Assembly: GCF_003206715.1 (NCBI RefSeq)
Contig: NZ_PZJU01000052.1
Coordinates: 1-53,734 of the forward strand
Direction of reading: 5' to 3'
DNA: 53,734 nt
From: Salinicola peritrichatus
Lineage (GTDB): Bacteria > Pseudomonadota > Gammaproteobacteria > Pseudomonadales > Halomonadaceae
The number at the start of each line of letters is the position of its first letter. Positions within the stretch are counted from its first letter, which is position 1. The translations under genes were made by a program, and so were the position numbers. The notes beneath the pieces are model-generated. The model worked only from the letters and a program-made list of their open reading frames with translations. It was not told where the DNA came from and made no database searches. Of this stretch, positions 9,925 to 53,734 are shown one piece after another.

Positions 9925-10057
9925 CTGTCTACGATCTGCTGCGCGTCGGCCAAACATTGTTGAAAACACTTTCGGAATGCTCATTTAGCCCCATGTAAAC
10001 TCTGCTTCCTCAAGTGTTTTCGCCTCGTTTGGCTCTAGCTCGCGAGATCGTAAACAG
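9925..10057 (+). repeat. Structured dispersed repeat, copy A (between ubiC and ubiA)
   Basis: Outer arms are CTGTCTACGATCT (9925-9937) and AGATCGTAAACAG (10045-10057), complementary with one mismatch. Inner arms are GAAAACACTT (9962-9971) and AAGTGTTTTC (10012-10021), a perfect match. The core GGAATGCTCATTTAG...ATGTAAACTCTGC lies between them. The copy lies in the ubiC-ubiA spacer with the core on the plus strand. See copies B-E. Confidence 0.7.
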
Positions 10058-10117
10058 ATCCTGAAATCAGTCACTGACTGTACTGCAGACTGATTTTGCT
10101 GCAAATAACAGGGACAG

Positions 10118-10687
10118 TTAAGGAAGCGCTGAATAAAGTGGCAACCCCAGATCCTCGGCCATCTCGCGCCGGAAGCACTCCTGCACCAGCAAGCGGACGT
10201 CGCCGTGGCGAAAACGCGAACGACGCAGCCAGAGTCCGTCGGCAGCCGGCGAGACCCGGGCCAGCTCGATCGGGCCGCGTTCGAGATCGGGCTGGGCGAA
10301 CAGCCAACTGCCCAGGGAGCGCTCGCCCAGCGTGCGCAGTCGTCGGCAGCCGGCGCGATCCAGCGGCGCGATCGAACGCGCGGCGACCCAGGCGCGGTCC
10401 CCGCTCATCAGCATCACTTCGCGAATCCAGGCGACGCGGCCGGGCGCCAGGCCCAACGCCCGCGCCTCGTCATGGCGTGGCGCCTCGACGCCCTGGTGCA
10501 GCAGCTTGACCCGGAACGGTCGCCGCGAGGCGGCGATCAGGCGCGCGGTCAGCGAATCGGTCGAAGCGATCCAGCGCCACCAGGCAGCTTCCATGCGCGG
10601 GCGCTGCACGGCGGCGGGTGTCCAGCGCATCCAGCGCCAGGACTGCTCGGAGGGTGAAAAGGGATGACAATGGCAGGCTGGGGGCAC
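10118..10687 (-). CDS. ubiC: Chorismate-pyruvate lyase UbiC
   Basis: This cytoplasmic enzyme makes 4-hydroxybenzoate and pyruvate from chorismate, the first committed step of ubiquinone synthesis. Family landmarks are WIASTDSLTARL near the N-terminus, WIREVMLMSGDRAWVAARSI in the centre, TLGERSLGSWLF, and GLWLRRSRFRHGDVRLLVQECF at the C-terminus. I chose the GTG at 10687 (189 residues) because a GGAG sits 6 nt upstream. Open frame continues to 10906, but that part overlaps the divergent rubredoxin reductase gene. ubiC-ubiA order on the minus strand is conserved in Pseudomonas. Confidence 0.85.
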   Translation of the reverse strand: MPPACHCHPFSPSEQSWRWMRWTPAAVQRPRMEAAWWRWIASTDSLTARLIAASRRPFRVKLLHQGVEAPRHDEARALGLAPGRVAWIREVMLMSGDRAWVAARSIAPLDRAGCRRLRTLGERSLGSWLFAQPDLERGPIELARVSPAADGLWLRRSRFRHGDVRLLVQECFRREMAEDLGLPLYSALP

Positions 10688-10787
10688 GCGAGACTCCAAA
10701 ACCGAACAACGCCGTCGCGCCGCGGGGAACGATGGATGGCACGCCCTAGTGTACCATGGGTGCCTGTCTTGACCGACCGATCCCGCT

Positions 10788-11990
10788 ATGAACGCTCGAA
10801 CCCGCACACCCGAATCACTAACGATCATCGGCACCGGCATGGCCGGCCTGGGACTGGCCCGTGCGGTGCGAAGCCGCGACGCCGAATGCCCGATCACGTT
10901 GATCACCGCCGACAGCGGCGACGACTATGCCAAGCCGCTGCTCTCCAGCGCCTTCGCCAAGCGGCAGACGCCGGATGCGCTGGTGATGCGCGATGCGGTG
11001 GGCGTTGCCGAAGCGCTGCGGGCCCAGGTTCGCATACACACCCCGGTGGAGGCGATCGACACGCTCAACCGCCGGCTCAGGATCGGCGCCGAGCAGTTGC
11101 CTTATGACCAGCTGGTGCTGGCGACCGGCGCGGCCCCGTGGCAGCCGTTCGCCATCGATTCTCTCCTGCGGGACCGGGTATTCCAGATCAACGATCTCGA
11201 CGATTACCGCCGTTTTCGGGCCACGCTGGATCGTCATCCCGGGCAACAGGCCCGCATCGCCATCATCGGCGCCGGCCTGGTGGGTTGCGAGTTCGCCAAC
11301 GATCTGCACAGCGGCGGCCACCGGATCGCGCTCATTGCCCCGGAGGCAACACCGTTGCCGCGGCTGTTGCCGCCCCCGCTGGGACAGGCGCTGGCCGAGG
11401 CCTTCGACGGCGCCGGCATTCGCGGTTACTTCGAGCGCAGCGTGGCAGCGCTCGGCGACAACGACGGAGAGGTGGTTATCACCCTCGACGACGGTGATCG
11501 GCTCGAGGCCGATCTGGTATTGATCGCCACGGGGCTGCAGCCGCGCACGGCGCTGGCGGAAGCGGCAGGGCTGGCGGTGTCGCCGGCCGGCATTCTCACC
11601 GACCGTTATCTTGCCACCAGCGAGGCGAATATCCACGCGCTCGGGGACGTTGCCTGTGTCGACGGGCTCAATGCTCCGGGCAACGGCCTGAGTGCGATGT
11701 ACGTGCAGCCGCTGCAGGCGAGCGCCAAGGCGCTGGCGGCCACGCTCACCGGCACGCCGACTCCGGTGCGTTACGGCGCCTGGCCGGTCATGGTCAAGAC
11801 ACCGCTGTTGCCGGTCGCCGCACTGCCGCCGCGTCAGACGCCGGCACGCTGGCGCATCGAGGGAGAAGCGGGTGATTTCAGCGCTTTCGCCGAGGACGAA
11901 ACGGGGCGCCTGCTCGGATTTGCACTGACTGGGCGCTGCGTTCGGCGTAAAGTCGAACTGGCGCGAGCGGCCCCCCCATTGCTAGGCTAG
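10788..11990 (+). CDS. rubB: Rubredoxin-NAD(+) reductase-like FAD oxidoreductase
   Basis: This is a pyridine nucleotide-disulfide oxidoreductase family flavoprotein of 400 residues. The FAD-binding GxGxxG is IIGTGMAGLGLARAVR (residues 13-28). The NAD-binding motif is IAIIGAGLVGCEFANDL (about 158), and the second FAD motif is ALGDVACVDG (about 285). The length and the C-terminal domain (WPVMVKTPLLPVAALPP) match RubB/AlkT, which passes electrons from NADH to rubredoxin for alkane hydroxylases or oxidative-stress enzymes. In Pseudomonas this gene follows rubredoxin genes and lies near ubiC and hup. Here the context is the same but no rubredoxin ORF is present, so the electron acceptor must be encoded elsewhere. 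Confidence 0.85.
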   Translation: MNARTRTPESLTIIGTGMAGLGLARAVRSRDAECPITLITADSGDDYAKPLLSSAFAKRQTPDALVMRDAVGVAEALRAQVRIHTPVEAIDTLNRRLRIGAEQLPYDQLVLATGAAPWQPFAIDSLLRDRVFQINDLDDYRRFRATLDRHPGQQARIAIIGAGLVGCEFANDLHSGGHRIALIAPEATPLPRLLPPPLGQALAEAFDGAGIRGYFERSVAALGDNDGEVVITLDDGDRLEADLVLIATGLQPRTALAEAAGLAVSPAGILTDRYLATSEANIHALGDVACVDGLNAPGNGLSAMYVQPLQASAKALAATLTGTPTPVRYGAWPVMVKTPLLPVAALPPRQTPARWRIEGEAGDFSAFAEDETGRLLGFALTGRCVRRKVELARAAPPLLG

Positions 11991-12145
11991 CCACGGTGGC
12001 TGCCGGGCGCATGAGTCATGAATCGTTACATAAGGCTGGACAAACCGCGCCCCGGACGGCCTATTATGCGCTCGGAGGGCATCTTCCCTCATCGAGAACA
12101 ACAATGCGTGTCAGGTGACGCCATTGCCAAACCAGGAGGGGCTTT

Positions 12146-12421
12146 ATGCGTAAGCCAGAACTCGCTGCGGCGATTGCCGAGCGTGCGGATCTTTCGAAGG
12201 ACAAGGCCAGTCAGGTGCTCAATGTCATCATCGACGAGATCACCGAGACAGTTTCCAAGGGTAACGATGTGACATTGATCGGCTTCGGCTCGTTCACGGT
12301 TCGTGAGCGTGCCGCGCGTACGGGCAAGAACCCGCAGACCGGCAAGCCACTGGATATTCCCGCCAGCAAGACCGTGGCCTTCAAGCCCGGCAAGGCACTC
12401 AAGGACGCCGTCAGCAAGTAA
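12146..12421 (+). CDS. hupA: Nucleoid-associated DNA-binding protein HU
   Basis: This 91-residue histone-like protein has the full HU pattern: N-terminal helices MRKPELAAAIAERADLSKDKA, the GFGSFTVRERAARTGKNPQTGK beta arm with the conserved NPQTG, and a C-terminal FKPGKALKDAV. It compacts and bends DNA as a homo- or heterodimer. An AGGAGG ribosome site precedes the ATG at ideal spacing, and a TATTAT lies about 80 nt upstream. HU rather than IHF is supported by length and by lack of the IHF-specific C-terminal helix extension. Whether it is the alpha or beta type cannot be told from sequence alone. The position after rubredoxin reductase matches Pseudomonas hupA. Confidence 0.93.
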   Translation: MRKPELAAAIAERADLSKDKASQVLNVIIDEITETVSKGNDVTLIGFGSFTVRERAARTGKNPQTGKPLDIPASKTVAFKPGKALKDAVSK

Positions 12422-12529
12422 AGGCAGCTTTGGTTCCTGTCACTCATTCGATAGTGAGTGAAACCATCGCCGATCCGCCCGCCGGCGGGTCGGCATTCTC
12501 CGATTCCGATAGGGTTCGCGCAAAATAGC

Positions 12530-12886
12530 ATGAAGCTCAAGTTGATGCTGTGGTGGCTCGGCGTGATGCTCAAGCGAGCCCGCTCCCGCAAGGCGGCGTT
12601 CCGCGAAGCGCTCGAACGCCTGCAGCGTTTCGATTGGGGCGTGGCAACAGAAGATCTGTCGATCGCACGCCACTACCGCATGACCCCGCAGACGATCGAA
12701 AGCCACAAAGGCTTACCGCTGGATCTGGCCCTCGAACTGCGCTTTCGCGACGCCGATAGCGCCGTGCAGTTCCTGCGCAAGCCGTCCCAGCGCGCCTTCC
12801 GTGAAGGCCTGTTCGACGGCCGCTTGCGGTTGGTCGGCGACTCCCGCGATCTGGAGCGACTGCAAGGTTTGCTCAAGCATTTGTAA
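12530..12886 (+). CDS. Small uncharacterised protein, possibly SCP2-like fold
   Basis: The protein has 118 residues. It begins with a hydrophobic and basic helix (MKLKLMLWWLGVMLKRARSR), then RFDWGVATEDLSIARHYRM..., and a segment with alternating strands LALELRFRDADSAVQFLRK followed by a helix and GRLRLVGDSRDLERL. The pattern of strand, strand, helix, strand near the end is reminiscent of small SCP2-type sterol-carrier domains, but I do not recognise a specific motif and the match is tentative. It lies 108 bp after hup on the same strand and is followed by a strong hairpin. The start is the first ATG with homologous-looking sequence; an in-frame GTG or ATG upstream to 12458 has no support. Confidence 0.55.
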   Translation: MKLKLMLWWLGVMLKRARSRKAAFREALERLQRFDWGVATEDLSIARHYRMTPQTIESHKGLPLDLALELRFRDADSAVQFLRKPSQRAFREGLFDGRLRLVGDSRDLERLQGLLKHL

Positions 12887-12917
12887 ACCTCCTCCCAAGC
12901 GGTACCGAAAGAGATGA

Positions 12918-12960
12918 CGAAAACCGCCCATCGAAACCGGAACGGTCTCGATGGGCGGTT
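12918..12960 (-). terminator. Intrinsic terminator for yceI (minus strand)
   Basis: A perfect 13-bp stem, AACCGCCCATCGA (12922-12934) with TCGATGGGCGGTT (12948-12960), holds a loop that itself can pair (ACCG-GAA-CGGT). On the minus strand it is followed by TTCGTC after the two terminal Ts of the stem (TTTTCG in total), so it fits termination of yceI. It lies 33 nt past the plus-strand gene at 12886 and may also serve that gene. Confidence 0.78.
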
Positions 12961-13003
12961 CTGCATGGTCGAGCCGAGAGCCGGCCCGGCTCGGATGGCG
13001 TCG

Positions 13004-13588
13004 TTATTCTGCCGCTTCGGCCTCGCTCGAAATCTCGATACGGACATCGTCACCGACGTTGGGGACATACTGGTCCAGGCCGAAATCGCTGCGCTGAATG
13101 ACCGTTTCGGCATCGAAGCCGATGGCCGGTACCTTGGCCATGGGATGCGTGCCCGCCTTGTTCAGGGTGGCGTGCAGTACCACGGGCTTGGTAATGCCCT
13201 TGATGGTCAGGTCGCCATGGACGTCATACTGCTGATCGCCTGTCGCTTCGATCCGCGTGCTCTTGAAGGTGGCCTCGGGGAATTTCTCGACATCGAAGTA
13301 GGACGCCTCGAGGAACTCCTCGGTCAGCGCCGGGACGCGGGTATCCACCGTTTTCACCGGGATACTGACCTCGACGCTGGATTGTTCCACGTTCTGGTCA
13401 TCGAACTGGATGGTGCCCTTCACGTCGCTAAAGCTTGCGGTCGGGTTGGAAAACCCGAAGTGGTTCCAGGACACCACCACACTGGTATGGGCGGGGTCCA
13501 TCTGATAGGTCGTGGTATCGGCCATGGCGTTGGCACTCAGGGTGCCGGTGAGCAGGGCCAGGGTCAAAGCCGCCTTTTTCAACATCAT
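13004..13588 (-). CDS. yceI: YceI-family periplasmic lipocalin-like protein
   Basis: The protein has 194 residues with a Sec signal peptide (MMLKKAALTLALLTGTLSANAMA, cut near ADTTT). The mature YceI beta-barrel has YQMDPAHTSVVVSWNHFGFSN, the VDTRVPALTEEFLEASYFDVEKFPEATFKST block, DLTIKGITKPVVLHATLNKAG and RSDFGLDQYVPNVGDDVRIEI. YceI proteins bind polyisoprenoids in the periplasm; the physiological role is not settled. I used the first of two tandem ATGs (13588), which has an AGGA 8 nt upstream, and reject an open frame to 13681. Upstream on the same strand is a pirin gene 108 bp away. Termination is at 12918-12960. Confidence 0.9.
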   Translation of the reverse strand: MMLKKAALTLALLTGTLSANAMADTTTYQMDPAHTSVVVSWNHFGFSNPTASFSDVKGTIQFDDQNVEQSSVEVSIPVKTVDTRVPALTEEFLEASYFDVEKFPEATFKSTRIEATGDQQYDVHGDLTIKGITKPVVLHATLNKAGTHPMAKVPAIGFDAETVIQRSDFGLDQYVPNVGDDVRIEISSEAEAAE

Positions 13589-13696
13589 CGATCGCTTCCT
13601 CAAGGGTTGTCTTGATATCACGTACGGGTTTGCTTGCAACAGTCGTGGCCGCCCCGCTGCCGGGGCAGCCACGATAGACATGACGGTCCTTACCGC

Positions 13697-14410
13697 CTAT
13701 TGAATAGTGACCGTCGGCAGATCGAACACCAGCACTTCCGCGTCCTCGCCTTTTTCCAGCGTCACGCCGGGCTCGTTGTCGAGCATCAGCGCATCGCCGC
13801 CTTCGAGCGCCTGGCCATTGACCGTGAGCTTGCCGCGCACCACATGCACGTAGGATTGACGGCCGGAGGCCAGCGGCAGCTCGGCGCGTTCATCGCCGTC
13901 GATCAGCGACGCATAGATGAAGGCGTCCTGCTGCAACTGGAGCGAGCCGTCGCGGCCGTCCGGCGACAGGATCAGACACAGGCGGCCGCGTTTGTCCGCT
14001 TCGCTGAAGTCCTTCTCGTCATAGCGTGGCGTGAGATTGGCTTCCCGCGGGAACAGCCAGATCTGCAGGAAGTGCACCGGCTCGCTCGCCGAGTGGTTGA
14101 ACTCGCTGTGCTGGACGCCGCTGCCCGTGGTCATGATCTGCACCCGGCCCGGCCCGATCGACGACCCGTTGCCGAGGGTGTCTCGGTGTGCCAGTTCGCC
14201 GCTCAGCACGTAGGAGAAGATCTCCATGTCGCGATGACCGTGCTGGCCGAAGCCCTGACCGGGGGCGACGCGATCCTCGTTGATCACCCGCAGTACGCTG
14301 AAGTGCACGTGCTTGGGGTCGTGGTAACCGGCAAACGAGAACGAGTGATAGCTCTTGAGCCAGCCGTGATCAGCGTAGCCGCGTTCCCCGCCGGGGCGAA
14401 TCGTCAACAT
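13697..14410 (-). CDS. Pirin family protein (bicupin, possible quercetinase)
   Basis: This 237-residue bicupin is of the pirin/YhaK class. Metal ligands are seen in the N-terminal cupin: GFGQHGHRDMEIFSYVLSGEL (two His and a Glu) and VQHSEFNHS (His/Glu). The family opening is MLTIRPGGERGYADHGWLKSYHSFSFAGYHDP. Some members cleave quercetin in vitro; the cellular role is unknown and often tied to stress response. An 11-bp-arm palindrome about 95 nt upstream could be its operator. It follows trpA on the same strand after 188 bp, but the palindrome suggests separate control. Confidence 0.87.
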   Translation of the reverse strand: MLTIRPGGERGYADHGWLKSYHSFSFAGYHDPKHVHFSVLRVINEDRVAPGQGFGQHGHRDMEIFSYVLSGELAHRDTLGNGSSIGPGRVQIMTTGSGVQHSEFNHSASEPVHFLQIWLFPREANLTPRYDEKDFSEADKRGRLCLILSPDGRDGSLQLQQDAFIYASLIDGDERAELPLASGRQSYVHVVRGKLTVNGQALEGGDALMLDNEPGVTLEKGEDAEVLVFDLPTVTIQ

Positions 14411-14504
14411 GGCATGTCTCCTTTCGGTGGCGCCGGGAAACCAACATCGGGTTGGTGGCGCGATGGAGATAGCTTATGCATCGAAATAATCGCATACCAT
14501 CGCC

Positions 14505-14532
14505 TTTTTACGCATGAATCAATGCATAAAAA
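14505..14532. promoter_or_regulatory. 28-bp palindrome upstream of pirin gene
   Basis: Arms TTTTTACGCAT (14505-14515) and ATGCATAAAAA (14522-14532) are complementary at 10 of 11 positions with a 6-nt spacer. It is A/T-rich at both ends, so it looks more like a dimeric regulator site than a terminator. The regulator is unknown. Confidence 0.5.
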
Positions 14533-14598
14533 CGAAAGGTCGAGAAAGCCCCAAGCGTCACGGCGCAGTCGTTTGTCGGTCTCCTCGAGATATCTCGG

Positions 14599-32653: not shown

Positions 32654-33532
32654 GTGAAGAAAACAACGTTAATTCTTGGCTGCGGCGATATCGGCACCCA
32701 GCTCGGGAAGCAATTGATCGAGGCCGGTCACCGTGTCGTCGGCGCGCGTCGCCATGCCGACGCGCTCGACGGCACCGGGATCGAGCCGGTGGCGCTGGAC
32801 GTGACCGACGAAGCCGCACTGGCGGCGTTGCCCGATGCCGATATCGTAGTCTATGCGGTGACCGCCGACCGTTTCGAGGAGTCCGCCTACGAGGCGGCCT
32901 ATCCGCAAGGCCTGAAGGCGATACTTCGGGAGTTCGCCGGGCGCGACAGGACACCGCAACGGCTGTTCTTCGTCTCTTCCACCAGCGTCTATGCCCAGCA
33001 CGAAGGCGAAGAAGTCGACGAAGCTTCGCCCACCGAGCCCAGCGGCTTCTCCGGTAGCTTGATGCGCGAGGCCGAGCAGATACTGCTCGAGCACGAGCTG
33101 CCGGGTACCGTGGTGCGCTTCTCCGGCATCTACGGCCCGGGCCGCGACCGGCTGATTCGCCAGGTCGGCGAAGGCCGTATCGCCGCCGCCAATCCGCCGC
33201 TGTACTCCAATCGCATCCACCGCGACGACTGCGCCGGCGTTCTGGCCCATCTGATCCAGATGGCGCTGGAGGGCAAGCCGCTGGAGCCGATCTACCTCGC
33301 CAGCGACTGCGATTCCGCGCCGTTGCACGAGGTGATGGCCTGGATCGCCAAGCGTCTCAAGGTGGAAACGCCCGATGTCATTCAGTCGCCGCTGCGCCGT
33401 CGCTCGAGCAAGCGTTGCAACAATCGGCGCCTGCTCGACACCGGCTACACCTTTCGCTACCCCTCCTTTCGTGAAGGCTACGCCGACGTGCTCAAGCGGG
33501 GGGGTTACCTGCCGGAGGCCGAGAAGGCCTGA
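32654..33532 (+). CDS. yeeZ: YeeZ-like SDR family NAD(P)-dependent epimerase/dehydratase
   Basis: The 292-residue protein has an N-terminal Rossmann motif ILGCGDIGTQLGKQLIEAGHRVVGARR, DADIVVYAVTADRF, and the atypical SDR active site FFVSSTSVYAQHEG. That site has Ser-Thr-Ser followed by Tyr, but no clear YxxxK Lys. VVRFSGIYGPGRDRLI follows. This matches the YeeZ/YbjT-type extended SDR proteins of unknown substrate. The start is GTG (32654) behind AGGGA. It is divergent from oxyR, which could mean redox-linked control. Six bp after its stop begins repeat copy B. Confidence 0.8.
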   Translation: MKKTTLILGCGDIGTQLGKQLIEAGHRVVGARRHADALDGTGIEPVALDVTDEAALAALPDADIVVYAVTADRFEESAYEAAYPQGLKAILREFAGRDRTPQRLFFVSSTSVYAQHEGEEVDEASPTEPSGFSGSLMREAEQILLEHELPGTVVRFSGIYGPGRDRLIRQVGEGRIAAANPPLYSNRIHRDDCAGVLAHLIQMALEGKPLEPIYLASDCDSAPLHEVMAWIAKRLKVETPDVIQSPLRRRSSKRCNNRRLLDTGYTFRYPSFREGYADVLKRGGYLPEAEKA

Positions 33533-33537
33533 GAATT

Positions 33538-33792
33538 TGACAAACTACTGCGCTCGCCCATGCGGCGTTGAGTCGGAGCGCAGCGGAGACAACAGCCAAA
33601 GGCTGGCCCGAAGGGCGAGCGAAGCGAGTCAATCCGCCTCAGAATGCTCATTTACTACTTGTAAACTGCGCTTGTTTGACGCGCGACATCCTTGTCGCTC
33701 GCTCTGCGAGCAGCGGAGCTGCCCAAATCGTCAATCCTGACGATTTGTCGGCGGATTTCGCCTTGCCTGACCATCGCTCGTGACGTTTGTCA
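33538..33792 (+). repeat. Structured dispersed repeat, copy B (after yeeZ)
   Basis: Terminal arms are TGACAAAC (33538-33545) and GTTTGTCA (33785-33792), a perfect match. It contains the two-hairpin module CAGCC-AAA-GGCTG (33593-33605) and GCCC-GAA-GGGC (33606-33616). The core AGAATGCTCATTTACTACTTGTAAACTGCGC starts near 33641, and a further hairpin AAATCGTCA-ATCC-TGACGATTT lies around 33726-33747. It starts 6 bp after the yeeZ stop. The core is in the plus orientation. Confidence 0.72.
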
Positions 33793-33848
33793 GCATCCTC
33801 GTCTGATTCGCACCGGCAACGGCCGTGCCGAAGATGACGGATCGATGG

Positions 33849-36001: not shown

Positions 36002-36796
36002 ATGATCCCGACCTCCACTCTCGATTCTCGCGCCCAAGCCGGCAAGCGCAGCTGGCGCCAGTTGCTCGGCTGGGCGATTGCCTTGGCCGTCCTGGCCTGG
36101 GCCTGGCAGGGCGCCGAAATGGCGCCAAGCCTGCTCATCGCCAACGCCGGCAACATGGCCACGCTGGCGGCCGACTTCGTGCCGCCGACCTTCGGCAATC
36201 TGCAGCACTACATCGATCAGATGCTGGTGACTATCCAGATCGCTATCTGGGGCACGCTGCTGGCGGTGCTGTTCGCGATCCCGTTCGGGCTGCTCTCCTC
36301 CGACAACCTGGCGCCGTGGTGGATCAACCAGCCGGTGCGAAGGCTGATGGACGCCTGTCGGGCGATCAACGAGCTGGTGTTCGCGATGCTGTTCGTGGTC
36401 GCCGTCGGCCTGGGGCCGTTCGCCGGGACCCTGGCACTGTTCGTCCACACCACCGGCGTGCTCGCCAAGCTGTTCTCGGAAGCGGTGGAAGCCACCGACG
36501 CCGGGCCGATGGAGGGCGTTCGCGTCACCGGCGCCGGACGACTGGAAGAGGTCATCTTCGGCCTGATCCCGCAGGTTCTGCCGCTGTGGATCTCGGTCAG
36601 CCTCTATCGCTTCGAGTCCAACATCCGCTCGGCCACGGTGCTCGGCATGGTCGGCGGCGGCGGCATTGGCGTCTCGCTGTGGGAGACCATGCGCGGATTT
36701 CAGTACACCGAAACCGCCACGATCATGCTGGTGATCATCGTCGCGGTGACGCTGCTGGATATGGCGTCGCAGCGTGTGCGCAAACGCTTCATCTAG
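36002..36796 (+). CDS. phnE: Phosphonate ABC transporter permease PhnE
   Basis: The 264-residue permease has about six membrane helices: an N-terminal one ([15 protein letters not shown]), a central TM core ([25 protein letters not shown]), the EAA-type loop [35 protein letters not shown], and the terminal [21 protein letters not shown]. Only one phnE gene is present; some bacteria have two. The ATG at 36002 is chosen because the frame upstream overlaps phnD. Its TAG stop is followed at the very next base by repeat copy C. Confidence 0.93.
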
Positions 36797-36991
36797 GCCG
36801 TGACGAAAACTGCCTGCGCTCGCCCATACCGCGTTAAAAATCGGCTCACTGAACGTCAGTTCAGAACGTCCGAAGGACGGCCCAGAGGGTGAACGAAGTG
36901 AATCAAATGCTCATTTACACATACGTAAACTCCGCTTTTTCGCCAATTTTTGCCTTGTCTGGGCTTCGCTCGGCGACTTTTCGTAGACGGC
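36797..36991 (+). repeat. Structured dispersed repeat, copy C (between phnE and phnF)
   Basis: The outer arms are GCCGTGACGAAAACT (36797-36811) and ACTTTTCGTAGACGGC (36976-36991); the inner arms are AAAAATCGGC (36836-36845) and GCCAATTTTT (36942-36951). The two-hairpin module is CGTCC-GAA-GGACG (36867-36879) and GCCC-AGA-GGGT (36880-36890). The core AAATGCTCATTTACACATACGTAAACTCCGC follows. It begins at the first base after the phnE stop and separates phnCDE from phnF onward. Confidence 0.75.
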
Positions 36992-37030
36992 CTAAGGGAT
37001 CTTTCAATCCAGGTTTTAGCGGATCCGATG

Positions 37031-38900: not shown

Positions 38901-40081
38901 TGTACGTTGCCGTCAAAGGGGGCGAGCAGGCGATCGCCAACGCCCATCGCTGGCTCGCCGACCGCCGGCGGGGCAATCGCGAGCGTGCCGAGCTGGAAGT
39001 CGAGCAGATCGGCGACCAGCTGCGCCTGGCCGTCGACCGGGTGATGAGCGAGGCCTCGCTGTATGACCCCGAACTCGCCGCGCTGGCGTTCAAGCAGGCC
39101 AGCGGCGATCTCACCGAAGCCGTGTTCCTGCTGCGCGCCTACCGCACCACGCTGCCGCGCCTGGCGGTCAGCGAGCCGCTCGACACCGCCAACATGCGCA
39201 TCGAGCGGCGCATCAGCGCCACCTACAAAGACATCCCCGGCGGCCAGATTCTAGGGCCGACCTACGACTACACCCACCGCCTGCTCGATTTCCTGCAACT
39301 GGCCGGTGCCGAAGTGCCGCCCGCCGAGAGTCGCGACGACGTGACCGAGGCCGAGCCATGCCCGCAGATTCTCGAACTGCTCAACGACGAAGGACTGGTC
39401 GAGCAGGAACTCGACGATGGCAGTGAGCCGGCCGACATCACCCGCGATCCGCCCGACTACCCGATGGATCGTGCCGCCCGGCTGCAGATGCTGGCGCGTG
39501 GCGACGAGGGCTACCTGCTGGCATTGGGTTACTCCACCCAGCGCGGCTACGGCCGCAACCATCCCTTCGCCGGCGAGATCCGCCTCGGTCAGGTGGAAGT
39601 GGAGATCCACGTCGACGAGTGGGACGAGACGATCTGCGTCGGCGAGATCGCGCTCAGCGAGTGCCAGTTGATCAACCAGTTCGGCGGCAGCCGAGAAGCC
39701 GCGCCGCAGTTCACCCGTGGCTACGGCCTGGCCTTCGGCCACAACGAGCGCAAGACCATGGCGATGGCGCTGGTCGACCGCGCGCTGCGCGCCGAGGAGC
39801 TGGGCGAGCCGATCGTCGGCCCGGCGCAGCAGGCGGAGTTCGTGCTGGCGCACGCCGACAGCGTCGACGCCTCGGGTTTCGTCTCCCACCTCAAGCTGCC
39901 GCACTACGTCGACTTCCAGTCCGAGCTCGATCTGCTCAGGCGCCTGCGCCGCGAGCATGCCCAGAACACCTCTTTTGGACAGTCCGAATCGCACGGCAAT
40001 CCAGCCACAGAGGAAGAAACGTCAGCGAGGAAGTCGGGACAAGGCAAACACGACCGAGAAGGCGGAGTTCATGGGTTATGA
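38900..40081 (+). CDS. phnI: C-P lyase subunit PhnI, with repeat-encoded C-terminal tail
   Basis: PhnI with PhnG, H and L replaces the adenine of ATP by the phosphonate, giving ribose 1-phosphonate 5-triphosphate. Conserved blocks are MYVAVKGGEQAIANAHRWLADRRRG, ERRISATYKDIPGGQILGPTYDYTHRLLDFLQLAG, SQRGYGRNHPFAGEIRLG and SGFVSHLKLPHYVDFQSELDLLRRLRREHAQ. The family normally ends at about this point (about 354 residues in E. coli), but here 393 residues are read. The last 21 or so residues (RKSGQGKHDREGG...) come from repeat copy D, which overlaps the 3' end. The tail is probably dispensable. Confidence 0.93.
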   Translation: MYVAVKGGEQAIANAHRWLADRRRGNRERAELEVEQIGDQLRLAVDRVMSEASLYDPELAALAFKQASGDLTEAVFLLRAYRTTLPRLAVSEPLDTANMRIERRISATYKDIPGGQILGPTYDYTHRLLDFLQLAGAEVPPAESRDDVTEAEPCPQILELLNDEGLVEQELDDGSEPADITRDPPDYPMDRAARLQMLARGDEGYLLALGYSTQRGYGRNHPFAGEIRLGQVEVEIHVDEWDETICVGEIALSECQLINQFGGSREAAPQFTRGYGLAFGHNERKTMAMALVDRALRAEELGEPIVGPAQQAEFVLAHADSVDASGFVSHLKLPHYVDFQSELDLLRRLRREHAQNTSFGQSESHGNPATEEETSARKSGQGKHDREGGVHGL

Positions 40082-40134
40082 ATGAGCATTTTGAGGGCGT
40101 GTTTAACGCCGTATCCGACGACGCAGCTAGTTTC
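40016..40134 (-). repeat. Structured dispersed repeat, copy D (phnI 3' end to phnJ)
   Basis: The outer arms are GAAACGTCAGCG (40016-40027) and CGCAGCTAGTTTC (40122-40134), similar but imperfect. The inner arms are AAACACG (40046-40052) and CGTGTTT (40098-40104). The reversed core is GGCGGAGTTC...GAATGAGCATTTT (40061-40092). It covers the last 22 codons of phnI and ends 11 bp before phnJ. It is the most diverged copy. Confidence 0.6.
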
Positions 40135-47180: not shown

Positions 47181-47249
47181 GCGATGCCGTCTCCGCTGTG
47201 TCTTCCGTGGCGCGCCGGTAGCCACGCAATGGCTACCGGCACGGGCCCG

Positions 47250-50200
47250 TCATGAATGACTATCCCCCGGCGAGGTGTCACCTTCACCCTCCAGCGTGGA
47301 TGCGTGGCCGCGCTTGAGTGGTCCGGCCAGTTTGCGCAGTGCCACATAGAATACCGGCGTCAGCAACAGGCCGAACAGGGTGACGCCGAGCATGCCGGCG
47401 AATACGGCAATCCCCAACGCCTGGCGAACCTCGGCGCCGGCGCCGTGACCCAGCGCGAGCGGTATGACCGCGGCGGTGAAGGTGATCGAGGTCATGACGA
47501 TCGGGCGCAAACGCAGCCGGCAGGCTTCCAGTGCGGCTTCCACCACGCCACGGCCCTGCAGCTCCAGTTCGCGGGCGAATTCGACGATCAGGATGGCGTT
47601 CTTGCATGCCAGCCCGATCAGGACCACCAGGCCCACCTGTACGAAGATGTTGGTGTCGCCACCGGCGATCCGGACGCCAACCAGCGCCGAGAGTACGCAC
47701 ATCGGCACGATCAGGATTACCGCCAGCGGCAGCGTCCAGCTCTCGTAGAGTGCCGCCAGCACCAGAAACACCAGCAGTACCGCCAGCGGGAACACCACCA
47801 GCGCGGCGTGGCCCTGGGTGGCTTGCTGGTAGCTCAGGTCAGTCCACTCGAAGCCGATGCCTTCGGGGAGCACCCGTTCGCCGATCGCGGTGAGCGCGGC
47901 CATCGCCTGGGGCGAGGAGAGTACGCGGGGATCCGCCTCGCCGGCCAGATCCGCCGCCGGATAGCCGTTGAAGCGCAGCACCGGGTCCGGCCCGAAGCTC
48001 TGGTGAATGTCCACCATGGAACCGATCGGCACCATCTCGCCCTGGGCGTTGCGGGTGCGCAGACGGGCGATATCCTCGACGCTGTCGCGGTAGGGGGCGT
48101 CCGCCTGGGCGATCACCTGCCAGGTACGGCCGAACTGGTTGAAGTCATTGACGTAGGTCGAGCCCAGATAGGTCTGCAGGGTGTCGAACAGATCGGTCAC
48201 CGCGACGCCCTGCGCCTTGGCCTTGAGTCGGTCGACGTCGGCATCGAGCTGGGGCACGTTGGCCTGGTAGCTGGTGATCGGATAGCTCATCCCCGGCGTC
48301 TGTACCACCGCGCCCTGGAAGGCGGTCACCGCATCCTGCAGCGGGCCGTAGCCGAGCCCGGCGCGGTCCTCAATGAACATCTGGTAGCCGGAACCGTTGC
48401 CCAGGCCGAGGATCGGCGGCGGCATGAACGAGAAGGCGATGCCATCCTTTAGCCCGGCGATCTTGCCGGCGATCTCGGCATTGATCTCCGCCGCCGTGCG
48501 CGTGCGCGCCTCGAAGGGCTCCAGCGTCAAGAACGCCAGCCCGGTATTGGCGGTGTTGGTGAACTGCAGGGCATTGAGGCCCGGGAAGGAGATGGCGTGG
48601 GACACGCCGTCGGTCTGCATGGCGATGTCCACCACCTGGCGCAGCAGATCGTCGGTGCGGTTGAGCGACGACCCTTCCGGCAGCTTCACGCCAGCGATCA
48701 GGTACATCTTGTCCTGCACCGGAATGAATCCCGGCGGCACGATCTTGAACAGGTAGCCGGTGGCGCCGAGCAGGATCAGGTAGACCACGAACACCGCGCC
48801 ACGGCGGCGCAGGCTGCGCGAGACCACGCCCTGATACCGCTTCGAACCGGCATTGAAGAAGCGGTTGAACGGGCGAAACAGCCAGCCGAACAGAAAGTCG
48901 ATCACCCGGGTCAAACGATCCTTCGGCGCGTCGTGGGGCTTGAGCAGCATGGCCGCCAGCGCCGGCGACAGCGTCAGCGAGTTGATGGTCGAAATCACGG
49001 TGGAGATGGCGATGGTCACCGCGAACTGGCGATAGAACTGGCCGGTGACGCCGGACAGGAACGCCATCGGCACGAACACCGCGCACAGCACCAGGCCGAT
49101 GGCGACGATGGGGCCGGAAACCTCGCGCATCGCCTGATGGGCGGCGGCTCTTGGTGCCAAGCCCTGCTCGATGTTGCGCTCGACGTTTTCCACCACCACG
49201 ATGGCGTCGTCGACCACGATGCCGATCGCCAGCACCAGCCCGAACAGCGTCAGGGTGTTGATCGAATATCCCAGCAGCAACAGCACCGCGAAGGTGCCCA
49301 CCACCGAGACCGGCACCGCCAGCAGCGGAATCAGCGAGGCGCGCCAGGTCTGCAGGAACAGCGTCACCACCAGCACCACCAGCAGCACGGCTTCGAGCAG
49401 CGTCTGGATGACCGAATGGATCGAGTCGTTGACGAACAGGGTGGTGTCGTAGACGGTGCTGTACTCCAGGCCTTGCGGGAACTGGGTCGCCAGTTCGTCC
49501 ATGGTCCGGATCACCTGGTCGCGGATCTGCAACGCGTTGGCGCCGGGGGACTGGAAAATGCCGATCGCCACGGCGTCCTTGCCGTCCAGCCGCGCGCGCA
49601 GGGTGTAGTCGCCCGCGCCGAGTTCGAGGCGCGCCACGTCGCGCAGGCGCAGAATCTCCCCGTCCTCGCCGGCCTTGAGCACGATGTCGCCGAACTCCTG
49701 CTCGGTGGTCAGGCGGCCCTTGGCGTTGATCAGGGTGAGAAAATCGCTGTCCGGCATCGGCTCGCCACCGATCTGGCCGGCGGAGACCTGCACGTTCTGC
49801 TCGCGCATGGCCTCGACCACGTCGCCGGCGGTCAGGCCGTGGGCGGCGATGCGGTCCGGGTCGAGCCAGGCGCGCATGGCGTAATCGCCGCCACCGAATA
49901 TCTGCGCCTCGCCGACGCCGGGGATGCGCGCCAGCTGGTCGCGCACGTGCAGGCGGGCATAGTTGCGTAGATAGAGCGTGTCGTAACGGGCGTCCGGCGA
50001 CACCAGGTGCACCACCATCAGAAAGGTGGGGGACTGTTTCTGCGTGGTCACGCCCTGGCGGCGTACCGCCTCCGGCAGTCGTGCCAGCGCCTGGCTGACC
50101 CGGTTCTGTACCCGCACGGTGGCCTGCTCGGGGTCGGTGCCGGGGCGGAACGTGACGGTCATCTGCAACACGCCATCGGAGCCGGCCACGGACTTGAAGT

Positions 50201-50435
50201 ACATCATGTCCTCGACGCCGGTGATCGCCTCTTCCAGTGGCGTGGCCACGGTTTCGGCGATCTCCTTGGGGTTGGCGCCCGGGTAGGTGGTGCGCACCAG
50301 TACCGACGGCGGCACCACTTCCGGATACTCGCCGATCGGCAGGTTGGGGATCGAAATCGCCCCCACCGCGAAGATGATGATCGACAGCACGGCGGCAAAG
50401 ATCGGCCGATCCACGAAAAAGCGCGAGAAATTCAT
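47250..50435 (-). CDS. RND-family multidrug efflux transporter (AcrB/MexB type)
   Basis: The 1061-residue inner-membrane pump has the HAE1 pattern: MNFSRFFVDRPIFAAVLSII start, RTTYPGANPKEIAETVATPLEEAI, the proton-relay helix LVLAIGIVVDDAIVVVENVERNIE with two Asp, the second repeat LVVFPLAVLLVFLVLAALYESW, and VLIGLACKNAILIVEFARE. It extrudes drugs or toxic compounds by proton exchange. No outer-membrane factor gene is next to it, so it must use a TolC-like protein encoded elsewhere. It is downstream of its adaptor in one operon. Confidence 0.93.
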   Translation of the reverse strand: MNFSRFFVDRPIFAAVLSIIIFAVGAISIPNLPIGEYPEVVPPSVLVRTTYPGANPKEIAETVATPLEEAITGVEDMMYFKSVAGSDGVLQMTVTFRPGTDPEQATVRVQNRVSQALARLPEAVRRQGVTTQKQSPTFLMVVHLVSPDARYDTLYLRNYARLHVRDQLARIPGVGEAQIFGGGDYAMRAWLDPDRIAAHGLTAGDVVEAMREQNVQVSAGQIGGEPMPDSDFLTLINAKGRLTTEQEFGDIVLKAGEDGEILRLRDVARLELGAGDYTLRARLDGKDAVAIGIFQSPGANALQIRDQVIRTMDELATQFPQGLEYSTVYDTTLFVNDSIHSVIQTLLEAVLLVVLVVTLFLQTWRASLIPLLAVPVSVVGTFAVLLLLGYSINTLTLFGLVLAIGIVVDDAIVVVENVERNIEQGLAPRAAAHQAMREVSGPIVAIGLVLCAVFVPMAFLSGVTGQFYRQFAVTIAISTVISTINSLTLSPALAAMLLKPHDAPKDRLTRVIDFLFGWLFRPFNRFFNAGSKRYQGVVSRSLRRRGAVFVVYLILLGATGYLFKIVPPGFIPVQDKMYLIAGVKLPEGSSLNRTDDLLRQVVDIAMQTDGVSHAISFPGLNALQFTNTANTGLAFLTLEPFEARTRTAAEINAEIAGKIAGLKDGIAFSFMPPPILGLGNGSGYQMFIEDRAGLGYGPLQDAVTAFQGAVVQTPGMSYPITSYQANVPQLDADVDRLKAKAQGVAVTDLFDTLQTYLGSTYVNDFNQFGRTWQVIAQADAPYRDSVEDIARLRTRNAQGEMVPIGSMVDIHQSFGPDPVLRFNGYPAADLAGEADPRVLSSPQAMAALTAIGERVLPEGIGFEWTDLSYQQATQGHAALVVFPLAVLLVFLVLAALYESWTLPLAVILIVPMCVLSALVGVRIAGGDTNIFVQVGLVVLIGLACKNAILIVEFARELELQGRGVVEAALEACRLRLRPIVMTSITFTAAVIPLALGHGAGAEVRQALGIAVFAGMLGVTLFGLLLTPVFYVALRKLAGPLKRGHASTLEGEGDTSPGDSHS

Positions 50436-50450
50436 GCAATGGGCTCCTGC

Positions 50451-50478
50451 GCGGCGGGTACGGTGCCCGCCGCTTTTT
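50451..50478. other. Strong intercistronic hairpin between adaptor and RND genes
   Basis: GCGGCGGG (50451-50458) and CCCGCCGC (50466-50473) form a perfect 8-bp GC-rich stem with a 7-nt loop. On the plus strand TTTTT follows, giving a good intrinsic terminator against antisense transcription. On the minus strand (operon direction) it sits about 5-15 nt before the RND gene's ribosome site and could act as an mRNA-stability or processing element. Confidence 0.65.
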
Positions 50479-50501
50479 CGTCGTCGTTCCCTTGGGAAGG
50501 C

Positions 50502-51689
50502 TCAGCGCCGTGAGGCGATCTCGGCCTCCGGAGCTTGCGTACGCATGGCGACCGGGTGAGGCGTTACCGGCATGCCCGGGGCGAAGATCTTCTGGGTGCC
50601 GTTGACGACGATCCTGTCGCCGGCTTCGAGGCCGTCGCGAATCACGATCAGCTCCCCGACTTCGCGGCCGGTCTGGACCTGGCGCATGGTGACGGTGTCG
50701 TCGTCGCCGACCACATAGACGAAGCGTCGATCCTGGTTGGCGAGCACCGCCTTGCGGCTCACCAGCACCGCCGCGTCCAGGCTGGCCACGGGCATCTCCA
50801 CCCGGGCGAACTGCCCCGGTCTGAAGACGTCGTCGGGATTGGGCAGCACCGCCCGATAACGCAAAGTGCCGGTATCCGGGTTGATGCGGTTGTCGACGAA
50901 GTCCAACCGGCCCTGGTGAGGGAAGCCCGATTCGCCGGTCAGGCCGATGCGCACCGTAGTCGCTTCCCCCTGGCTCGACAGCAGTCGCGCGCTCGGTACT
51001 TCGGCTTCGTTGCTGTCGAAATAGACATAGAGCGGATCGACCGATACCAGCGTCGTCAGCACCGTCTGATCGGCGCTGGCTAGGTTGCCCTTGGTCACCA
51101 TGGCGCGTCCGGTGCGGCCCGTTACCGGGGCGGTGACGCGGGTGTACTGCAGGTCCAGTTCGGCGCTGGCCAGTGTCGCCTCGGCTTCCGCTTCCTGCGC
51201 CCGGGCGTTGAGCGCGGCCGCCTGGCGCTGATCGTGCTGCTCCTGGGAGATCATCTGTTTCTGGATCAGCTGGCGGGATCGACCGGCCTCGATCTCGGCG
51301 AGCCGGCGCTGGCTTTGTGCCTGCGCCAACGCCGCCTTCGCCGCCTGCACGCGGGCCTCGTAAGGGCGCGGGTCGATCCGAAACAGCACGTCGCCGGCGT
51401 TGACCAGCTCGCCCTCCTCGAAGTCGATCTCGTCGACATAGCCACTCACTCGGGGCCGCAATTCCACGGTCTGTGGCGCGGCGACGCGACCGGTAAAGGT
51501 TTCCCGCAATGTCACCGGCTCCACCAGCACCGTGGCCACATCCACTTCCGGCGGCGGCGGCGCGCTGGCGCTTTCCGCCTCGCCGCGCGCGTCGCAGCCG
51601 GCGGCGAGAAACGCGGTGACGATCAACACGGCCAGACCGTGGGATGAGCTCGCGCTCGAAACAGGCATTCCGATGCTTTTCCTTTTCAT
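50502..51689 (-). CDS. RND efflux periplasmic adaptor (membrane fusion protein)
   Basis: The 395-residue lipoprotein has a signal sequence with lipobox FLAAGC. The adaptor arrangement follows: ELRPRVSGYVDEIDFEEGELVNAGDVLFRID, a hairpin YEARVQAAKAALAQAQSQRRLAEIE, VTAPVTGRTGRAMVTKGNLASADQT, then PGQFARVEMPV and the C-terminal GLEAGDRIVVNGTQKIFAPGMPV. This matches AcrA/MexA. The ATG at 51689 has GGAG six nt upstream; an ATG at 51758 lacks a signal peptide. It precedes the pump gene, and its divergent neighbour is an AraC regulator. Confidence 0.92.
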   Translation of the reverse strand: MKRKSIGMPVSSASSSHGLAVLIVTAFLAAGCDARGEAESASAPPPPEVDVATVLVEPVTLRETFTGRVAAPQTVELRPRVSGYVDEIDFEEGELVNAGDVLFRIDPRPYEARVQAAKAALAQAQSQRRLAEIEAGRSRQLIQKQMISQEQHDQRQAAALNARAQEAEAEATLASAELDLQYTRVTAPVTGRTGRAMVTKGNLASADQTVLTTLVSVDPLYVYFDSNEAEVPSARLLSSQGEATTVRIGLTGESGFPHQGRLDFVDNRINPDTGTLRYRAVLPNPDDVFRPGQFARVEMPVASLDAAVLVSRKAVLANQDRRFVYVVGDDDTVTMRQVQTGREVGELIVIRDGLEAGDRIVVNGTQKIFAPGMPVTPHPVAMRTQAPEAEIASRR

Positions 51690-52004
51690 GTGTCGCTCCG
51701 CGTTTCGTTGCCACGGCGGGATGGCGGGTATGGAGGAAAACTCTAGAGGCTGGTGCACAGAGGGCGTTATCGGATTTCTCCCGTTTGATTGCCCAATCCA
51801 GTTTATTCATGCACGCGGACGACACTGGTCATGGCACTGCGCGGCGGCATTCGCAGCCGGTTGCCGAGTCGCTTGCCCGATCCTTCAAAGTGCTTGCCCA
51901 ATTCTGCAAGTGTTGGCTTTTTGCAGCCAAAGTCTGGAAACGCGAGCTTATACTCGCCTTTCATCGATGAATGCGTACCGACTTGCCAGCGAGAGAGCGA
52001 ATTC
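51690..52004. other. Divergent promoter region between adaptor and araC genes
   Basis: This 315-bp spacer holds no gene. It contains 21-bp direct repeats (51871-51912), a hairpin TTGGCT (51913-51918) with AGCCAA (51925-51930), and a TATACT (51949-51954) suited to be the -10 of the araC gene. The part next to the adaptor (51690-51870) shows nothing I can name. Confidence 0.5.
51871..51912 (+). promoter_or_regulatory. 21-bp direct repeats, probable AraC-family operator
   Basis: GCTTGCCCGATCCTTCAAAGT (51871-51891) and GCTTGCCCAATTCTGCAAGTG (51892-51912) share GCTTGCCC and CAA near position 16 in a head-to-tail arrangement of exactly two helical turns. This is the layout preferred by AraC-type activators. 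It is about 93 bp before the araC start and 182 bp before the adaptor start. Confidence 0.55.
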
Positions 52005-52970
52005 ATGATTGCCACGCAGCCCGTTCCCGAAGATCTGGAAGACCCCCTCGAAGACTTGGCGAATACTCTGGCGCGCCAGATTCAGCTGTGGGCGCCGGAC
52101 GAAGGCATCACATCCACGGCGATTCCCGGCCTGGAGCTGATGCGTGCCAATGCCGCCAATAGTTGCATGGGATCGACGGTATACGATCCAGCCCTGTGCC
52201 TGATCGCCCAGGGCGGCAAGACCGTATGGCTCGGCGATCGGCAGATCGAGTACGGTCCGCTGAGCTGCATGGTGTCGACGGTCCACCTGCCGGTGCTGGG
52301 CAAGGTGATCGACGCCTCGCCGGAGAAGCCCTATCTGGGAGTCAAGATCACCGTCGAGCCCCAGGAAGTGACGGATCTGGTCCTGGCGATGGGTGAGTCG
52401 TTGAGCGCGGGGATTGACGAGGAGTGCCCCGACGGCGCCTGTGGCCTGAGTCGCGTGCGGGCGGAAAAAGGCATGGTGGAAGCCGTGTTGCGGCTGGTGA
52501 GTCTGCTGGAATCGCCCCGGGACTCCGTGATCCTTGCGCCGCTGATTCGGCGCGAGATTCTCTATCGGGCGCTGGTGGGCGAGCTCGGCGTGCACATGCG
52601 CAAGTTCGCGGTAGCGGACACCCAGACGCATCGTATGGCCAAGGTCATCGCGGTGCTCAAGGACCGCTTCGCGGAGCCGCTGCGCGTTCGCGATCTCGCC
52701 GACATGGTCAACATGAGCGAGTCATCGCTGTTCCATAGCTTCAAGCAGGTGACGCGAATGTCGCCGCTGCAGTTCCAGAAGCGGCTGCGTTTGCACGAGG
52801 CGCGGCGGCTGATGCTCTCCGAGGGAATGGAGGCGGCCACCGCCAGCTTCCGGGTGGGGTACGGCAGCCCTTCTCATTTCAGCCGCGAATACAGCCGCAT
52901 GTTTGGCGTGCCGCCTCGGGCGGACGTGGTCAAGCTGCGCGGAGAATTGCCGCAAACCGCGCGCGCTTGA
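52005..52970 (+). CDS. AraC-family transcriptional regulator (AraC_N type)
   Basis: The 321-residue regulator has an N-terminal AraC_N domain (STVYDPALCLIAQGGKTVWLGDRQIEYGPLSCMVSTVHLPV) and two C-terminal HTHs: FAEPLRVRDLADMVNMSESSLFHSFKQVTRMSPLQFQKRLRLHEARRLM and AATASFRVGYGSPSHFSREYSRMFGVPP. The divergent placement against the RND adaptor suggests it controls the pump and itself. The ligand is unknown. The ATG at 52005 is preceded by GAGAGAGCGAATTC. Repeat copy E follows its stop by about 58 bp. Confidence 0.9.
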   Translation: MIATQPVPEDLEDPLEDLANTLARQIQLWAPDEGITSTAIPGLELMRANAANSCMGSTVYDPALCLIAQGGKTVWLGDRQIEYGPLSCMVSTVHLPVLGKVIDASPEKPYLGVKITVEPQEVTDLVLAMGESLSAGIDEECPDGACGLSRVRAEKGMVEAVLRLVSLLESPRDSVILAPLIRREILYRALVGELGVHMRKFAVADTQTHRMAKVIAVLKDRFAEPLRVRDLADMVNMSESSLFHSFKQVTRMSPLQFQKRLRLHEARRLMLSEGMEAATASFRVGYGSPSHFSREYSRMFGVPPRADVVKLRGELPQTARA

Positions 52971-53028
52971 ACGCTCCGCCCAAGCAGCGGCACGGGCCTC
53001 GGGCATTGGTCGTACGGACCGGCCTGAG

Positions 53029-53166
53029 GTGCTGTCTGAAAAGTCGACGAGCGAAGGCCAGGCAAGGCAAAAATCGGCGAAAACGCGGAGTTTACGGGGT
53101 GTAAATGAGCATTTTGGGCCGATTTTTAACGCCGCATGGGCGAGCACAGTACTTTTCAGACAGTGC
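53029..53166 (-). repeat. Structured dispersed repeat, copy E (between araC and ridA)
   Basis: The outer arms are GTGCTGTCTGAAAAGT (53029-53044) and ACTTTTCAGACAGTGC (53151-53166), near-perfect. The inner arms are AAAAATCGGC (53069-53078) and GCCGATTTTT (53118-53127), perfect. The core in reverse orientation is GCGGAGTTTACGGGGTGTAAATGAGCATTTT. It ends at the base just before the ridA stop codon (minus strand) and has no two-hairpin module. It is the simplest copy. Confidence 0.8.
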
Positions 53167-53556
53167 CTAGTCGCCGATCACCATCACCGCTTCGGCTTCC
53201 ACCTGACTGCCCTTGGGCAGCTGCTTGACGCCGACCGCGGCGCGGGCCGGGAAGGGGGCGGAAAAGAACTCTTCCATCACCTTGTTGACCACCGCGAAGT
53301 TGTCGAGATCGACCAGGTAGAGGTTGAGCTTGACGATGTCCTGCAGCGAGCCCGCGGCTTCCTGGCAGACGGCGGCAAGGTTGGTGAAGACCTGGCGCGC
53401 CTGGGTTTCGAACTCGTCGGAGACCAGCTCCATGGTGGCCGGGTCGAGCGGAATCTGCCCCGAGAGATAGACGGTGTTGCCCGACTTGATGGCTTGCGAA
53501 TAGGGGCCGATGGCGGCCGGGGCGTTGTCGGTGTTGATCACGGCTTTGTTGCTCAT
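53167..53556 (-). CDS. ridA: Reactive intermediate/imine deaminase RidA
   Basis: The 129-residue enzyme hydrolyses enamine/imine intermediates from PLP enzymes such as threonine dehydratase. Key residues fall at the canonical numbers: Arg105 in FPARAAVGV and Glu120 in KGSQVEAEAVMVI, with the N-terminal INTDNAPAAIGPYSQAI and VYLSGQIPLDP. In many gammaproteobacteria ridA lies near spoT and recG; here recG and oxyR lie 21 kb away on the same strand, separated by phn and pump genes. Its stop codon abuts repeat copy E. Confidence 0.95.
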   Translation of the reverse strand: MSNKAVINTDNAPAAIGPYSQAIKSGNTVYLSGQIPLDPATMELVSDEFETQARQVFTNLAAVCQEAAGSLQDIVKLNLYLVDLDNFAVVNKVMEEFFSAPFPARAAVGVKQLPKGSQVEAEAVMVIGD

Positions 53557-53649
53557 GGCGTACCCTCCAGCGTTGTATAAATGTCTGCGCGGGCGAATCG
53601 CTGCGTTGCGCGGTGCGCGGAATCCTCACCTATACCCATAGGCTCCGGT

Positions 53650-53734
53650 TGACTCCAAGCCTGCGGCTTCTCGCCCCTTCGGGGCCGTCCTCCGGACGTT
53701 CTCTCCGCTTCGCTTCGAGTCTGTGCTCCGTGCG
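53650..53734 (-). repeat. Partial structured dispersed repeat, copy F (window edge)
   Basis: It holds only the two-hairpin module in reverse orientation: GCCCC-TTC-GGGGC (53673-53685) and CGTCC-TCC-GGACG (53686-53698), then CTCTCCGCTTCGCTTCGAGTC. This corresponds to the insert in copies B and C. The element continues beyond the window, so its ends and core are not seen. Confidence 0.55.

Follow-up and report, generated by a model that had tools for sequence, protein, structure and literature searches.

Palindromic repeats of Salinicola peritrichatus are probably non-autonomous transposons of an ERIC superfamily that exchange their ends around a conserved hairpin

The 53,734-nucleotide contig NZ_PZJU01000052.1 of Salinicola peritrichatus, called the window here, carries five copies (A to E) of a palindromic repeat, one of them in the phnE/phnF interval, one overlapping the 3′ end of phnI and one beginning at the stop codon of a RidA-family gene. 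A first-pass annotation had described these copies as a dispersed structured family with a shared core, covarying arms and a sixth, partial copy (F) at the end of the contig. The five copies lie at about the positions proposed there and are mutually homologous, with nhmmer cross-matches within the window at E 2.5e-15 (C with E), 9.2e-10 (D with E) and 2.8e-6 (E with A). Copy A (9921-10061, plus strand) is free of inserts, has outer arms of the type named T3 below and a core (AATGCTCATTTA..TGTAAACTCTGC) at 9976-10005 on the plus strand; it is flanked by a 3-bp TNA repeat, TGA, at 9918-9920 on the left and 10062-10064 on the right. Copy B (33531-33800, plus) has T2-type ends, placed by eye against other T2 copies, a double-hairpin insert in the 5′ arm and a second insert region in the 3′ arm. 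Copy C (36796-36992, plus), with T4-like ends, is the copy between phnE and phnF; it is bordered by TA at 36794-36795 and 36993-36994 and carries a 56-nt insert at 36849-36904 on the plus strand.

The other copies are on the minus strand. Copy D (40016-40134) is the one overlapping phnI; its outer arms are poor and its apical stem is altered on both sides (TTCAT/ATGAA). The Pfam match of PhnI stops at residue 352 of 393, and the protein continues for about 40 residues (window 39957-40081) to a stop codon inside D. Copy E (53028-53167), adjoining the RidA-family gene, has T1/T4-like ends. Sequence F (53640-53734) is a double-hairpin module that runs up to the contig end without core or terminal inverted repeat (TIR) and resembles the inserts weakly (nhmmer E 0.037 and 0.047). 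F thus does not stand as a partial copy of the family, and the inserts proposed for B, C and F are present in B and C. The core is not literally the same in all five copies: A reads TTTAG and D has the altered stem.

Across the S. peritrichatus genome (4.62 Mb in 109 contigs), the family is a palindrome of about 140 bp with at least 76 distinct copies after removal of duplicates. This number is a lower bound; for example, a 96% match of B on contig C33 lies outside the blastn matches listed. By blastn, at least 56 matches were found with A and at least 45 with E, in each case out of 40 scored candidates. Copies were also seen at or near contig edges, on C38 (23-150), C103 (4474-4605 of 4742), C93 (17775-17911 of 18130), C42 (68040-68170 of 68189), C55 (224-412) and at the end of the window. 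Contigs that start or end at or near copies suggest that the repeats may break the assembly.

The arms covary within copies, as had been claimed. This was measured in an alignment of 44 insert-free copies from this genome (A1), which omits L070, L008 and 30 copies set aside as insert-bearing. In the 38-pair structure, 88.0% of cells were paired, compared to 73.3% in shuffled alignments and 31.6-47.1% when the partner was slid. The number of cells changed on both sides was 270, compared to 89.8 in shuffles, and was reached in 0 of 500 shuffles, a count that is not a probability because the copies are related. Two-sided changes occurred in 28 of the 38 pairs (22.0 in shuffles). The inner and apical stems covary as well: pair 65-91 is GC in 31 cases and AU in 10, and pair 72-83 is altered on both sides in D and in L037. 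Pairing and two-sided changes exceed the shuffles, but the number of further pair types, one of five measures, does not (62 compared to 60.2, reached by 172 of 500 shuffles).

Besides singletons, the outer arms fall into the types T1 (CGCTTTGTCTGAAAAAT), T2 (GAGAATGCTGACAAAC), T3 (GARCCTGTYYACRATCT), T4 (GGCYCTGTACGAAAACT or GGCCATGTACGAAAACT) and T5 (GGAAACCTCTGATTAAC). The genome has eight PF01609 matches, and two of its insertion sequences (ISs), both of the IS5 family, have T1 ends. The element on contig C23 (L083/L085), which contains stops, has the left end CTACGCTTTGTCTGAAAAAT, the very letters of T1 copies such as L016, so that the T1 arm is identical over 20 nt to one end of a resident IS5-family element. 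Its right end reads TACGCTCTGTCTGAAAAAT; the element on contig C24 (L080/L092; domains PF13340, PF01609 and PF13586) ends in TACGCTCTGTCTGAAAAAT and ACGCTTTGTCTGAAAAAT, and these three ends are one letter off CTACGCTTTGTCTGAAAAAT or one letter short. PF13340 was found in 16 of 58 genomes, the S. peritrichatus genome included, and 30 loci were fetched. Among these, T1 ends are present at L088 and L092, and a T4-like end, TGTACGAAAA, at five loci from relatives (both ends of L091 and L098; exact on one end of L089, L094 and L105). A further PF13340 locus, L109, carries TCAGAACCTGTTCAAAGTCT, which matches 18 of 20 letters in the arm of the T3-related copy L062. IS TIRs are thus shared for T1 in the own genome and for T4- and T3-like arms in relatives; in the loci looked at, none turned up for T2, T5 or the Pseudomonas and Bacteroidota types described below. 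An autonomous element that encloses the core was also considered and was not seen in the two resident ISs read (C23 and C24), to which that search was limited.

The flanks of the copies also bear on mobility. Among T3 copies, 22 of 34 are flanked by matching 3-bp TNA repeats (7.3 shuffled), and 4-bp repeats flank two of eight T2 copies (0.25 shuffled). TA stands on both sides of 9 of 11 T1 copies (8.2 shuffled) and 4 of 7 T4 copies (4.0 shuffled); these counts do not exceed the shuffles, since TA borders nearly all of these copies. The ubiA/ubiC site was readable in 12 of 17 congeners, and none of these 12 has copy A. The empty site reads GGCCTGAAAATC in G001 and G009, and the occupied one GGCCTGA-element-TGAAATC; at several of the 12 empty sites the junction has drifted beyond alignment by eye. 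With three arm types that match IS5-family ends exactly or nearly, target duplications for one type and these empty sites, the idea of a mobile element raised in the first-pass annotation is supported for the outer arms. The opposing view considered there, an IS-derived element with simple fixed ends, is right in that the ends look IS-derived but wrong in that they are not fixed.

The inserts are modular. Among the 76 copies, 46 have none of three insert patterns, 10 have the 5′-arm double hairpin, eight combine the double hairpin with an apex insert, seven have the apex insert alone, two (L029 and L073) have the double hairpin reversed on the 3′ arm and three have a C-type insert in the 5′ arm. 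At the site of copy C, the element without the 56-nt insert is found in the congeners G006, G011, G013 and G015, and with other inserts in G004. A landed copy can thus gain or lose inserts, and we read them as gains. Copy C is absent from G001, G002, G003, G008, G009, G012 and G017, and in six of these seven (not G017) a terminator-like hairpin with a T run stands in its place 3′ of phnE. Copy D is present at the same place in G006, G008, G012 and G017 and absent from G001, G002, G003, G009, G011, G013 and G015. Outside this genome, other inserts near the apex or at GCC in the 3′ arm were seen in L150 and L158 (Nitrosomonadales) and in L173 and L227 (Pseudomonas).

We searched for the family beyond its own genome with a sequence-plus-structure model of the own-genome copies (R1). 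Such a model had been proposed, and it matched 45 of 58 relatives and, in a sample of the whole class, 89 of 232 genomes (E <=1e-6), the own genome included in both and matches per genome being lower bounds. G022, which holds the IS locus L098, had no R1 match. From the class-wide matches, 29 loci (L118-L146) were read with a regular expression, which overlooked some. The exact string AAAATGCTCATTTACN(4-6)GTAAACTCCGCTTT occurs in at least 119 stretches at no fewer than 128 sites. In 80 titles of these stretches the hosts include Pseudomonas, Halomonas, Vreelandella, Billgrantia, Litchfieldella, Marinospirillum, Nitrosomonadales, Gallionella, Mariprofundales, Oligoflexia, one Acidobacteriota metagenome-assembled genome (MAG) and many Bacteroidota (Alistipes, Tannerellaceae, Prevotellaceae, Rikenellaceae, Lentimicrobiaceae and Chitinophaga). 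The core string is thus present in Bacteroidota and in beta- and zetaproteobacteria, flanked by other TIR-like ends, and the outer arms vary by lineage; the exact-string scan forces conservation of the core in this named set, and since many hosts are MAGs some phylum labels may reflect contamination. By blastn, copy E had no match in phages and matched 10 plasmid records, eight of them from Pseudomonas, with no feature under the match in an incomplete gene table.

In the Mariprofundales MAG (G293, 2.0 Mb), a 15-nt end, GTAACTRCTCAG, of a miniature inverted-repeat transposable element (MITE) has 409 matches compared to 0 for reversed controls, with nested longer forms. Exact 8-bp repeats flank 12 of 46 rows (0.3 shuffled), where a copy may recur among the rows at nested lengths. 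The combination of GTAA ends with 8-bp duplications is IS66-like, and one partial PF03050 match adjoins the MITE ends. IS66 was not adopted as the mover in this MAG, the transposase support being that one fragment.

Ends and interior are separable. In the own genome, 263 of 946 pairs of copies have an interior identity of >=0.8, and in 55 of these (49 + 2 + 4) the TIR identity is <0.45; L076, whose ends do not pair, contributes many of the most extreme pairs. In Pseudomonas, L152 and L181 (GGGGCGCCTCTAAAAAC.., AAGGCCACCTCTAAAAAC..) have an interior mostly in common with L153, L166 and L199 (TAGCAGGCTGTTGAAAAAC.. or close), and sharing starts from the same junction on both arms, although the 23 sequences compared were chosen by the letters of that junction, which is therefore shared partly by construction. 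The reverse case was also found: L384 has, around 1501, a 59-bp element with AGCAGGC-type TIRs around an unrelated hairpin, and a 58-bp form in L364 lacks the core. Of 48 views of sites with AGCAGGC ends, 41 lead to the core and seven do not; the views come from overlapping loci, so that some sites are counted more than once. These views cover 30 loci out of 124 matches in six genomes, and none of the seven leads to a partner end at IS distance within 1.5 kb.

The first-pass annotation had suspected a known repeat that it did not name. ERIC was described in 1990-91 and is widely used for strain typing. In two papers (PMC2229807, PMC2759123), it is given as a 127-bp element of enterobacteria with a 7-bp TIR and TA ends and with a variant in Vibrio. 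Its centre, assembled from PCR primers, was present in 5375 of 5426 Escherichia coli genomes and reads TCA-CTTAC-TTAT-GTAAG-CTCC within a CCCCA/TGGGG stem. Like the window repeats, ERIC (also IRU or RU-1) is an imperfect palindrome with the centre TCA-CTTAC-N4-GTAAG-CTCC in a paired stem and, by eye, with the shoulders GCGTT (5′) and GCCTT (3′); unlike them, it has a shorter 5′-side inner stem and other outer arms. A second model (R2) was built from 58 core segments (A2) with ERIC left out of the training; 12 of the 58 rows come from class-drawn genomes of unassigned order, and the letters required of a row exclude canonical ERIC. R2 scored 16.4-19.0 bits at four of the five ERIC loci. Over 300 kb of E. 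coli K-12 MG1655 it gave three matches at E <=10, the best in metR-metE (31.0 bits, E 2.5e-5), with a centre, CACCCCGGTCACTTACTTCAGTAAGCTCCCGGGG, that is ERIC-like by eye; the others, in cusC-cusF and ybhI-ybhJ (16.4 bits, E 0.27 each), are canonical ERICs, and a fuzzy search of those 300 kb for the ERIC centre matched these two sites alone. Blastn with copy E at E 1e-3 matched none of 20,395 E. coli records, and R1, built from Halomonas only, scored non-significantly on ERIC (11.6, 8.7 and 8.7 bits, E 0.4-3.4, at three of four loci, with none at L333); for this reason we claim a superfamily and not ERIC proper. As judged from the models, the window repeats and ERIC most likely belong to one superfamily, and ERIC, broadly taken, is the most likely identity of the suspected family.

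Taken together, we propose, with a probability of roughly 0.75, that the repeats, as members of an ERIC superfamily, are non-autonomous DDE transposons (MITEs) whose ends are exchanged around a conserved hairpin. The element would have three layers. The outer arms of about 18-20 nt would be the TIRs of an IS, here of different IS5-family groups, so that the transposase of the IS could move the element in trans. The middle stem is variable yet paired, and the innermost layer is the conserved hairpin core, CGTT..TCA-stem-N4-6-stem-CTCC..GCCT, perhaps maintained by selection. The modular pattern suggests that both TIRs are exchanged together, as a matched pair, around an interior that persists, and one hairpin chassis would in this way be carried by several transposases and phyla. 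Most likely, one end would first be altered through recombination or one-ended transposition, and fold-back copying (quasi-palindrome correction) would then copy the change to the other arm, giving two matched ends. Double-hairpin inserts can be added later to landed copies, as at C. Such elements resemble IS5-family MITEs (IS427/IS1031-like groups) in that the outer arms equal or resemble IS TIRs and TNA repeats or TA flanks are present; they differ in that the interior is not part of the two ISs read and different ends are found around one interior. RUP of Streptococcus pneumoniae is a 107-bp MITE (PMC2229807) whose TIRs match the resident IS630-Spn1; by description rather than sequence it is alike as a MITE with the TIRs of a resident IS, and unlike in depending on one IS. 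The GTAG and CGTC superfamilies of REPs, as described in PMC3733652, are likewise small palindromes found over several phyla, but are 20-40 bp long with a tag, the GTAG group going with tyrosine transposases. No literature on the present elements was found, as judged by titles and abstract openings.

Several results weigh against this proposal, the chance-level TA flanks of T1 and T4 and the preselected Pseudomonas junction among them. No IS with T2, T5 or Pseudomonas AGCAGGC ends was found in the loci looked at, in a search that was not exhaustive. PF01609 had no match in four of nine host genomes, including both Alistipes, and PF03050 none in two of three. The TIRs of IS5 groups are mutually related, so some apparent swaps may be co-divergence. 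On the ERIC side, R1 does not reach significance, R2 gave no match at one of the five loci (L333), and canonical ERICs in MG1655 reach 16.4 bits at E 0.27, which leaves metR-metE as the only individually significant match. Transposition itself is inferred, no event having been observed.

A bolder form of the proposal takes the core itself as the unit of selection, a transposase-agnostic selfish module that adopts the ends of whichever host transposon is active via fold-back copying, has spread over several phyla and has ERIC as its best-known branch. We consider this tentative, and somewhat less probable than its opposite. It is unlikely that mutational bias alone explains the pattern, with template switching in a fold-back homogenising the palindromes so that arms covary without selection on the fold. 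Pairs changed on one side are indeed rare beside pairs changed on both, as this would predict, but the unpaired letters CGTT, TCA, CTCC and GCCT stay non-complementary, where homogenisation would erase them; in A2 these core letters are partly fixed by row selection.

Less probable still is a structured RNA, a hairpin acting in mRNA as terminator, RNase III/E site or stabiliser whose arms are kept paired by selection. The strong covariation with conserved unpaired motifs would fit this, as would the terminator-like hairpin at the place of C in congeners and the influence of ERIC RNA on mRNA decay in Yersinia (PMC2229807). Orientation to neighbouring genes was scored with a crude caller of open reading frames at 88 named sites, 14 of which were dropped (eight inside a frame, five far, one at an edge), and at 41 own sites, 18 of which were dropped (10 edge, four inside, four far). 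The remaining 74 named copies with two near neighbours comprised 24 sense, 19 antisense, 20 convergent and 11 divergent cases, and the 23 own copies 6, 3, 8 and 6, respectively; neither set has a clear bias, which argues against a role in mRNA. At variable pairs, leaving out those whose commonest state is not Watson-Crick, G-T departures are rarer than A-C on the core strand, both in A1 (33 and 59; composition expects 130 and 161) and in A2 (15 and 55; expected 103 and 128), with a few columns carrying much of the A-C excess. Sequences with more A-C than G-T outnumber the reverse by 20 to 6 in A1 (18 ties) and 29 to 6 in A2 (23 ties). The opposite holds for the inner pairs of A1 when a constant T-G pair is included (G-U 63, A-C 37) and when 114 named copies were paired without grooming (G-T 360, A-C 274), where the script over-extended many arms; these two results would favour an RNA, and the wobble test is therefore mixed. 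The variable pairs give no support to RNA on the core strand, and since A-C there is a wobble when read on the opposite strand, RNA or single-stranded DNA of that strand is a possible folded form. Rfam gave 0 matches at the gathering score in the window, and with this, the mixed wobble and the absent orientation bias an RNA element in mRNA was rejected. Selection for a folded form, the other idea of the first-pass annotation, is possible for the inner arms and the core, which covary without being TIRs, but as an RNA it is not supported by orientation. Very improbable, finally, is recombination of a folded single strand that acts on the core hairpin, whether attC-like or, as in REPs, Y1/RAYT-like. 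A conserved apex on a covarying stem and a core common to elements with different ends would suit this, but DDE-like ends, duplications (TNA, 8 bp) and TIRs in common with IS5-family elements do not.

In the usual picture, MITEs are internal deletions of one IS. If the core is common to several phyla and transposase families, a MITE can change its mobiliser, which departs from that picture.

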